Source of the DNA: an uncultured archaeon
Lineage (GTDB): Archaea; Hadarchaeota; Hadarchaeia; Hadarchaeales; WYZ-LMO6
Direction: 5' to 3'
Length of the DNA: 64,000 nt
NCBI GenBank assembly: GCA_938074535.1
Contig: CALJER010000003.1
Coordinates: forward strand, 1 to 64,000
Below are positions 33,857 through 36,958 of the stretch, piece by piece. The notes beneath the pieces were generated by a model. That model made no database searches. It saw only the letters and a program-made list of their open reading frames with translations, and had not been told where the DNA came from. The stretch's first letter is position 1; every line of letters begins with the position of its first letter. The position numbers were made by a program, and so were the translations under genes.

Positions 33857-33881
33857 ATCCAGCCCCCATACCTAAATGCTC

Positions 33882-33891
33882 ATATTTAAAG
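33882..33891 (+). promoter_or_regulatory. TATA-box-like element upstream of surface protein gene
   Basis: atatttaaag ~25 nt upstream of in-frame GTG at 33909. Confidence 0.5.
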
Positions 33892-33908
33892 AAAATCAAC
33901 ATTTACGT

Positions 33909-36860
33909 GTGAAGGTTCCGCGGGGAGGGTGGGAAAAGGGGCTGAAGGGCGGGATGGCCCTGCTGCTCTGCCTCCTCTTCCTCCTCCCCCCGGCGTGCGC
34001 CCTCACCTTCACCGACACCACCAACGCCGACTTCGCGCAGGGGGTGCACGAGAACACGGAGAACGTGAGCGACGACCTCAGGCTCAGGACCAACTACCTG
34101 CAGGGCAGGTTCACCTCCAGGGCCTTCGACGCCCTGCAGACGCAGGTGTGGGGCACCCTCTCCTGGAACGCCACCCTTCCCTCCCTTGCGGTGAGCGTGG
34201 AGAACGACAACGTGGGGGCCGAGCCCACCACGCTGGCGGACGGGACCCCCAGGATAGGGAGGATCACGGGGGGTTCCGTCCTGAACACGAGGATCTCCGA
34301 CGGAGTCTACGAGAACATAGTGGAGGAGGCCGGCGCCCCCTACGGGGGAAGCGTGAACCTCATCCTCTTCTGGGACGGGGCCACCATACCCTCGGGCTGG
34401 ACCTGCATCTCCGATGACCCCGGGGAGCCCTTCTACTACAGGTTCCCCATGGGGGGGTCCTCCTACGGGAGCACGGGGGGTGCGGAAAACCATACCCACC
34501 CCACCACCTCCTCCTGCGGGGGACCCTCCGCCACCCTACAGAGGAACTCCGGGACCAACGTGACCACGGCGACCAGCACCCACACCCACACCCCCACCGT
34601 CACCGTGGCGACCGTAAGCCACCTCCCGCCTTACTACGACCTGAAGGTGATCAGGTACAACTCGGGAATCCCGTCCACCCTTCCCGCCGGTGTGATAGCC
34701 CTCTTCCCCTCCACCTCTGTTCCTTCCGGCTGGAGCCTTTACACGGCGGCGGACAACCGCTTCCTCAGGGGTGCTCCCTCGGCCGGGGGAACGGGGGGAG
34801 GCACCACCCACACCCACAGCGTGAGCGTGAGCACGGGCGGTCCCTCCCATACGGTGCAGCTGAGGACGGACCCCTGTGGTGCGTCCGTTGCCTACCCCAC
34901 CAGTACCCACACCCACTCCGGTTCTGGCACCAGCTCGGCGGCCGCCAACCTCCCCCCCTACCTCACGGTGGTCCTGGCCAAGGCCTCTGCCGACACCCCC
35001 ATCCCGGGCGGAATGATAGGGATGTTCGACGGCGTGCCCGGGGGGAACTGGTCCCTCCTCTCGGCCTTCAACGGAAGGTTCCTGCTGGAGAACCTAACCG
35101 CGGGATATGGGGCCACGGGGGGGACCTCCTCTCACACCCACTCCGATCTCAGCATCACCACGGGTACGGGCGCCACCTCCTCGGCCAACCTGGATGTGGG
35201 GACCGCCGTCACTTTCGCCAGCGGCACCCACACCCACACCGTCACGGTTTCCTTCCAGGAGAGTTCCCACCTCCCCCCCTACGTCACCGTCCTCTTCGCC
35301 CAGGCCACCTGCGGGCTCCGCTGGCAGCACAACATCGAGAACGTGGCGGCGGGCTACGCCAGCTACCAGCTGCGCGTGAAGGGCAGGACGAGCGGTGACT
35401 CCGAGACCGTGGGGGTCTACGTGTGGAAGAGCAGCGCCAGCTCCTGGGAGTACCTGGGGAACCTCACGGGGACCGAGGCAACCCTCACCAAGATCCTCTC
35501 CGGGGCCGAGCTCCCCTCCTACCTGAGCGGGACCAGCCTGCTGGTCAAGTACGAGTCGGCCGATGCCAGCGACCTAACCCCCACCGCCCTCCACGTGGAC
35601 CTCTGCATCCTGGAGGAGGGCCAGCTCTACAAGAGCTATGTGAAGTTCAGGGTGAGGGTGAGCGCGAACGGCTCCACCTGGAGCCAGGAGCTGGGCCCGG
35701 ACGGTACCCCCAACACCTACTTCACCTCCTCCCCCGCCAGCCTGGGGAACATCCCGGAGAACCGGTACATCCGCTACGTCGCGTACCTCTCCAGCGAGCA
35801 CTCCCAGCTCACCGGGGCCAACGGCCCGAAGGTGCACGACGTGACCATCACCTCCTTCACCCCAGGACAGGCCGAGGTTTTCACCCTGGGAGCTGAGAAC
35901 GTGGGCTGGGGGGGCGCCATCCTCACCGCCAGGCTCCTCTACGTGGATCCCTGGGCGGCGGTGAGGTTCCAGTACATGCCGGAAGGGGGGGTCTGGGAGA
36001 GCACCCCCTGGGAGGGCTGGGAGAAAAGCTGGTACTGGCGCCCCGTCTCCGGCCTGCAGGAGAACAAGACCTACTACTTCCAGGCGCAGGTGAAGTACGG
36101 CGGACAGATATACGGCGGCGGGATCAGGACCTTCAGAACCCTTCCCAGCAAACCCTATGCCGTCACCCTGAGGGCCACCGAGGTGGACAACTCCTCCGCC
36201 GTGCTCAACGCCAGAATATACTACGGCAGCTACGACAACGTGAGCATAAGGTTCTGGTATCAGCCCGAGGGAGGGAGCTGGTCGGCCACCACGTCCGTCC
36301 AGGGCTACAGGGGCCCCACCTACAGCACCAGGATCACGGGCCTGACCGCAAACAAGCTTTACTCCTTCAGGGCTGAGATCACCTACGGTACCACCTCCGA
36401 GAACGCCAACGTGGAGACCTTCACCACCTTTACTTCCAAGTCCACGGGCATGGCCTACGACGGGACCCTCGGGTTCGGCTCCTCCCCCCCCGGCTGGCAC
36501 GGGGTGAGGATGACCCCGCCCTCCGGCACCAAGGGTCTGAAGCTGGAGCTCCTCACCTCCTCCCCCCTCCCCGCCCACTACTCCCTGCGGGTGGTGAGGG
36601 ACAACGGGGAGCTGCTCTACGCCGGCCACATCCTCTCCGACAACGGGAAGAGCAAGGTGGTGAGCGTGAGGCTCTGGAAGAGCACGGCCGGGGAGAGCGT
36701 GTACGTGGAGCTCTACGATCCCTACGGCTTCGCCTACAGGACGAGGGGCACCAAGCCCTCCTTGGGGGATGCCGCGTACTCCTACCTGGACCGCACCGGA
36801 AAGAACCTCAGGTACTACGACAGGGCCTGCGGCGTGAACGTGCTGGAGAGCTACGCCTGA
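33909..36860 (+). CDS. Secreted surface protein with three phage tail-collar-like repeats and FN3-like domains
   Basis: Signal peptide MALLLCLLFLLPPACA; repeats of [IV]PSGW..RF..G...GG..HTH...LPPY; GLTANKLYSFRAEITYG FN3-like. Confidence 0.65.
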   Translation: MKVPRGGWEKGLKGGMALLLCLLFLLPPACALTFTDTTNADFAQGVHENTENVSDDLRLRTNYLQGRFTSRAFDALQTQVWGTLSWNATLPSLAVSVENDNVGAEPTTLADGTPRIGRITGGSVLNTRISDGVYENIVEEAGAPYGGSVNLILFWDGATIPSGWTCISDDPGEPFYYRFPMGGSSYGSTGGAENHTHPTTSSCGGPSATLQRNSGTNVTTATSTHTHTPTVTVATVSHLPPYYDLKVIRYNSGIPSTLPAGVIALFPSTSVPSGWSLYTAADNRFLRGAPSAGGTGGGTTHTHSVSVSTGGPSHTVQLRTDPCGASVAYPTSTHTHSGSGTSSAAANLPPYLTVVLAKASADTPIPGGMIGMFDGVPGGNWSLLSAFNGRFLLENLTAGYGATGGTSSHTHSDLSITTGTGATSSANLDVGTAVTFASGTHTHTVTVSFQESSHLPPYVTVLFAQATCGLRWQHNIENVAAGYASYQLRVKGRTSGDSETVGVYVWKSSASSWEYLGNLTGTEATLTKILSGAELPSYLSGTSLLVKYESADASDLTPTALHVDLCILEEGQLYKSYVKFRVRVSANGSTWSQELGPDGTPNTYFTSSPASLGNIPENRYIRYVAYLSSEHSQLTGANGPKVHDVTITSFTPGQAEVFTLGAENVGWGGAILTARLLYVDPWAAVRFQYMPEGGVWESTPWEGWEKSWYWRPVSGLQENKTYYFQAQVKYGGQIYGGGIRTFRTLPSKPYAVTLRATEVDNSSAVLNARIYYGSYDNVSIRFWYQPEGGSWSATTSVQGYRGPTYSTRITGLTANKLYSFRAEITYGTTSENANVETFTTFTSKSTGMAYDGTLGFGSSPPGWHGVRMTPPSGTKGLKLELLTSSPLPAHYSLRVVRDNGELLYAGHILSDNGKSKVVSVRLWKSTAGESVYVELYDPYGFAYRTRGTKPSLGDAAYSYLDRTGKNLRYYDRACGVNVLESYA

Positions 36861-36958
36861 TGGGGCCAGGGCCGGGAACTCCGCCGGCTCGGGGCCGGAT
36901 TCGAACCCGGGTCACGGGATCCACAGTCCCGGATGCTGACCGCTGCACCACCCTGGCC
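36861..36958 (-). tRNA. tRNA-His (anticodon GTG) with 22-nt T-loop intron (36878-36899), CCA encoded, G-1 encoded
   Basis: GCCAGGG..CCCTGGC acceptor, CGGGACTGTGGATCCCG anticodon arm; CCGGGTTCGAA|TCCGGCCCCGAGCCGGCGGAGT|TCCCGG forms bulge-helix-bulge. Confidence 0.92.

Follow-up and report, generated by a model that had tools for sequence, protein, structure and literature searches.

A tRNA-His gene interrupted in the T-loop

Can a tRNA-His gene whose T-arm and acceptor stem do not pair as encoded be the working gene of its host, and if so, how would its transcript be repaired? Such a gene lies on the minus strand of the window, by which we mean the whole 64,000-nt stretch of DNA analyzed here (Table 1). 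The original prediction described a 22-nt intron at position 59/60, with the T-arm and acceptor stem unpaired before splicing and a complete cloverleaf afterwards, and its coordinates, sequence and structure proved correct. On the unspliced gene, ARAGORN (36885-36958) and Rfam (36886-36957) both end the minus-strand tRNA-His within the intron, leaving its acceptor stem mispaired; the hit scores 37.4 bits, third-lowest among the 38 tRNA hits of the genome. Taking out TCCGGCCCCGAGCCGGCGGAGT yields a 76-nt tRNA-His in which the acceptor stem pairs 7/7 and the T-stem 5/5, and the ARAGORN score rises from 110.4 to 124.3. A covariance model of hadarchaeal tRNA-His (model R1) gives 88.5 bits over 36864-36958. 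A repeated T makes 60/61 (intron 36877-36898) an alternative reading of the boundary, with an identical spliced product. Tools restricted to anticodon-loop introns will assign a wrong 3' end to this gene.

The tRNA gene is convergent with a plus-strand gene (33876-36860) for a protein of 994 aa that has repeats, an apparent signal peptide and no Pfam match; the stop codon of this gene directly abuts the tRNA 3' end.

Table 1. Features of the tRNA-His gene and of the rRNA introns in the window (positions within the 64,000 nt; arrows mark intron boundaries).
Feature	Position	Strand	Basis
tRNA-His(GTG), precursor form, G-1 and CCA encoded	36861..36958	-	ARAGORN, Rfam RF00005
5' exon, G-1 to A59	36900..36958	-	sequence; intron offset 59 in the 98-nt precursor
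Intron, 22 nt, TCCGGCCCCGAGCCGGCGGAGT, 59/60	36878..36899	-	strict hBHBh', spliced cloverleaf, absent from G002, G017 and G022 orthologues
3' exon, T60 to CCA	36861..36877	-	sequence
BHB 5' side: h CCGGG, central helix TTCG, first two bulge bases AA	36900..36910	-	
BHB 3' side: central helix CGGA, bulge GT↓T, h CCCGG	36872..36883	-	
16S rRNA intron, 876 nt, LAGLIDADG gene inside	24784-23909	-	insert absent from G001
23S rRNA intron, LAGLIDADG gene inside	about 20921-20082	-	T↓...G↓ boundary type
23S rRNA intron, LAGLIDADG gene inside	19514-18744	-	T↓...G↓ boundary type

The junction reads CCGGG-TTCG-AA↓T-CCGGC-CCCGA-GCCGG-CGGA-GT↓T-CCCGG. A 4-bp central helix, TTCG/CGGA, stands between two 3-nt bulges, AAT and GTT, and all the pairs of the predicted textbook hBHBh' motif are present (h 5/5, H 4/4, h' 5/5). 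When the intron letters were shuffled 200,000 times, H arose in 5% of cases, and H together with a 5-bp h' in 0.07% (probability 0.0007). Folded on its own, the host's arm has a minimum-energy structure in which h and h' persist but the central helix is only partly formed.

Distribution among Hadarchaeota

The host is a Hadarchaeota MAG of 1.2 Mb, 93.6% complete, and the relatives that carry the same gene are by name Hadesarchaea, Hadarchaeum and Hodarchaeaceae MAGs, that is, Hadarchaeota. Our sample comprised 27 genomes of the order including the host (G000); tRNA-His was readable in 20 and was not found in the other seven, all of them incomplete MAGs. An intron of 16-26 nt at 59/60 interrupts the gene in 8/20 (G000, G001, G003, G006, G007, G011, G014 and G015; all found by BLAST), the gene is uninterrupted in another eight (G002, G004, G005, G008, G010, G017, G018 and G022), and in four the interruption is a 37/38 intron in the anticodon loop (G016, G021, G023 and G024). 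It is also uninterrupted in G027, a phylum-mate from outside the order.

The best sequence evidence for a discrete intron with the predicted ends is provided by empty sites in close relatives. G015, with the intron, and G017, without it, share 95% DNA identity over 2.25 kb, and the intron is absent to the base; the same exact absence separates G014 from G022, at 90% identity over 1.6 kb. The congener G002 likewise lacks the intron exactly when compared with the host, its T-arm being uninterrupted as predicted. That relatives this close differ in having the intron suggests that it has been gained and lost repeatedly. Within the host's own family the intron is found in G003, G001 and G000, so loss in G002 would be the simpler reading; the direction of change was not read from the EndA tree because most of its forks are weak.

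Covariation and same-position introns in other phyla

The central helix is complete in all eight hadarchaeal 59/60 introns. In each of them R57, the T-loop purine, forms a Watson-Crick pair (G-C or A-U) with its intron base, never G-U or A-C, and this extends to 14/14 when six same-position introns from other archaea are added (three from Thermoplasmata, one from Bathyarchaeota, one from DPANN and one from another archaeon). The type of pair was not built into the search for these six, because the pattern, which required YGRR in the intron, left C or T free opposite R57. When partners were shuffled among sequences, the R57 result was obtained at p 0.0001 for the 14 rows and 0.03 for the eight hadarchaeal ones, the rows being partly related and not fully independent. 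L106 and L100, whose h' is offset or short, were retained for the central-helix count. Taken with the exact intronless orthologues, the covarying helices bear out a 22-nt intron at 59/60. Introns of this kind had been thought to be known mainly from Thermoproteales. This proved too narrow, as tRNA-His introns at 59/60 also occur in MAGs of Hadarchaeota, Thermoplasmata, Bathyarchaeota and DPANN.

Three further candidates for same-position introns were rejected: L111 forms no strict motif, the L123 gene has no intron and matched by chance further downstream, and in L101 (Heimdallarchaeota) inspection indicated that the matched CTGTGGA apparently lies within the intron of another tRNA. This last tRNA (L101 438-502), apparently not a tRNA-His, seems to carry an anticodon-loop intron together with a strict T-loop intron at 59/60.

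A single tRNA-His gene and its proposed splicing

A second intact tRNA-His gene would have spoken against the original prediction; it was searched for with the hadarchaeal tRNA-His covariance model, and neither a second nor a split gene was found in the 93.6%-complete host genome, where the next-best match to the model is a tRNA-Asp with a D-loop intron. The congener G001 (95% complete, 4 contigs) also has no tRNA-His besides its interrupted gene, whose intron is 20 nt long and at the same position. The tRNA-His gene occupies the same locus in G000, G001 and G002, with the end of the same convergent gene downstream and a T-rich, TATA-like stretch upstream in each. The small host genome has two genes for tRNA-Cys(GCA) (C17:5457-5527, L048, and C9:49177-49248, L094); a study of RNA-dependent cysteine biosynthesis covered Bacteria and Archaea, Hadesarchaea among them (PMC5424206).

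In the precursor, the T-stem would act as the outer helix h, T-loop positions 54-57 (TTCG) would pair with CGGA of the intron to form the 4-bp central helix, and the intron would close its own hairpin h'. EndA would then cleave each 3-nt bulge between its second and third bases and RtcB would join A59 to T60, whereupon the T-loop would refold as TTCGAAT; until splicing it would be unable to dock on the D-loop. We infer transcription, cleavage and ligation of the precursor from the sequence. Ligation by RtcB is an established archaeal pathway, and the genes for EndA (contig C39) and RtcB (contig C12) are both present in the host genome. Cleavage by EndA is also an established archaeal pathway (PMC4090602). 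The T-arm, which contributes a complete helix plus one half of a second, may represent a ready-made landing site for introns. Nothing about the intron itself points to a function other than its being removable.

Two other accounts of the locus have to be weighed. The gene could be a decayed tRNA-His with a chance insertion of 22 nt, the cell relying on another tRNA-His gene. It is indeed a poor tRNA when unspliced, and a second gene could lie in the missing ~6% of the MAG; however, removal of the intron restores a perfect cloverleaf, the position and motif are conserved in eight genomes with covarying helices, and G001 likewise has the interrupted gene only, all of which makes decay very improbable. 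Alternatively, the insert could leave by a route that bypasses EndA, if it were, say, a self-splicing RNA or a very small mobile DNA element. Its presence and absence in 95%-identical DNA, and a group I intron in the rRNA of the same genome, would be in keeping with this, but neither a ribozyme nor a coding element would come close to fitting into 22 nt, EndA has a textbook substrate in this junction, and both enzymes of the EndA-RtcB route are encoded; we give this account even less credence than decay. We are highly confident that this hadarchaeal tRNA-His gene is single and functional and that a bulge-helix-bulge (BHB) intron interrupts it at 59/60.

EndA type and relaxed D-loop introns

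A heteromeric EndA had been expected in the genome; it was not found, and a single alpha-type gene is present instead. It encodes a protein of 178 aa with an N and a catalytic domain (PF01974/PF02778) that can be aligned over its full length to 1A79, the alpha4 enzyme of M. jannaschii; it shows no extra loop and has the active-site Y/H/K of that enzyme, in the motifs FRVY, AHSRY and VRK. Every Hadarchaeota genome with a hit, incomplete as these genomes are, has one EndA gene over the Pfam cut-off, and a search with a beta-type profile returned no second credible EndA gene in these incomplete genomes. Neither the 15-18-residue loop relative to 1A79 nor the beta subunit of crenarchaeal (alpha-beta)2 EndA was found. 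On these sequences, the hadarchaeal EndA is most likely alpha4. This type is listed as a narrow-specificity class (PMC6379350), and the strict hBHBh' at 59/60 suits such an enzyme.

The genome also contains introns in the D-loop of tRNA-Asp (L174, C17:61122-61225) and of two adjacent tRNA-Gln genes (TTG and CTG; L098, C41:10332-10560), all with a relaxed HBh' motif and no helix h. In relatives, D-loop introns occur in tRNA-Asp, tRNA-Gln and tRNA-Glu, with HBh' only; in their tRNA-Asp copies the central helix covaries, GGTC being found with GACC, GGCC or GGCT. Efficient removal of relaxed motifs is ascribed solely to (alpha-beta)2 and epsilon2 enzymes (PMC6379350). Going by the sequences, either the hadarchaeal EndA would be broader than its class, or the rule would be softer than stated, or a subunit may have been missed.

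If a subunit was missed, EndA would be heteromeric, in the usual crenarchaeal pattern, with a beta subunit too divergent to detect. The incompleteness of the genomes leaves room for it, the short beta subunit PAE0789 matches the host EndA only weakly, and relaxed HBh' introns are usually tied to heteromeric enzymes (PMC6379350). Yet in several other archaea the second subunit was picked up, at 1e-12 to 1e-23, while no Hadarchaeota genome yielded a second gene by either the Pfam or the beta-type search, and the sole EndA spans the full length of the alpha4 enzyme; we therefore consider a hidden subunit unlikely. We propose, tentatively and aware that it may well prove wrong, that a homotetrameric alpha4 EndA devoid of the known specificity loops splices both the T-loop intron and the relaxed HBh' D-loop introns of tRNA-Asp and tRNA-Gln, breaking the published rule, and that 59/60 of tRNA-His is a recurrent landing site across archaeal phyla, the T-arm supplying half of the motif.

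Introns in the rRNA genes of the same window

The 16S insert follows ...GGGATTAGAT and has the boundary type T↓...G↓. It matches Rfam Intron_gpI at E = 5.5e-6 (31.3 bits, under the gathering score of 50). A BHB intron was considered for this site and rejected, there being no strict motif at the junction and group I being matched instead. The insertion site, after GATTAGAT, is one that we take to be near E. coli 788. The two 23S introns are, presumably, at LSU/1923 and LSU/2500, the E. coli numbering being taken from flanking motifs. LSU/1923 and LSU/2500 are known archaeal group I sites, and in a 2018 table of archaeal group I introns the sole SSU site is 1498, the hadarchaeal 16S site not being listed (PMC6125680). 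With the 23S inserts, no Intron_gpI match in Rfam reached E = 1; they are probably group I-like, judged by position and boundary only. The window had been predicted to hold two mechanistically different RNA splicing systems. The Intron_gpI match upholds this for the 16S, position and boundary being what points the same way for the 23S, and two splicing chemistries do appear to coexist in the window.

Comparison with known systems

Position 59/60 is a published tRNA intron site (Yoshihisa 2014, PMC4090602; Sugahara 2008 as cited there), and one survey catalogues more than two thousand introns in archaeal tRNAs, including 673 non-canonical ones (PMC8450103). Among the titles and abstracts searched for Hadarchaeota together with introns or tRNA, none reports a 59/60 tRNA intron in the phylum. 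What was already known is the type of intron and its position; what gives the case its value is the hadarchaeal host, the pairs of genomes with and without the intron, the recurrence at tRNA-His 59/60 and the question about EndA. T-loop tRNA introns now extend to Hadarchaeota. The natural pairs, one of them with loci 95% identical, lend themselves to the study of intron gain and loss, and with the hadarchaeal EndA and its introns one can test directly whether, as proposed, the subunit type of an EndA is linked to the introns that it can remove.

Like the non-canonical BHB introns of other archaea, the hadarchaeal intron is short, has a BHB junction and restores the tRNA when removed; those introns, however, have intron-rich Crenarchaeota as hosts, whereas the host here belongs to Hadarchaeota and apparently has an alpha4 EndA. 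At a single tRNA locus, very closely related genomes have also gained or lost an intron in Caldiarchaeum, whose tRNA-Thr shows intron and split-gene heterogeneity (PMC3293823), although no mobile element or splitting was seen at the hadarchaeal tRNA-His locus. The archaeal group I introns of rRNA (Nawrocki 2018, PMC6125680), found in the 16S and probably the 23S of the same window, are self-splicing ribozymes with homing-endonuclease genes and are unrelated to the tRNA-His intron. The canonical 37/38 BHB introns, such as those in the tRNA-His genes of G016, G021, G023 and G024, are of the same intron class and are presumably removed by the same enzyme; in contrast to them, an intron in the T-loop blocks the mature contact between D-loop and T-loop until it is spliced.
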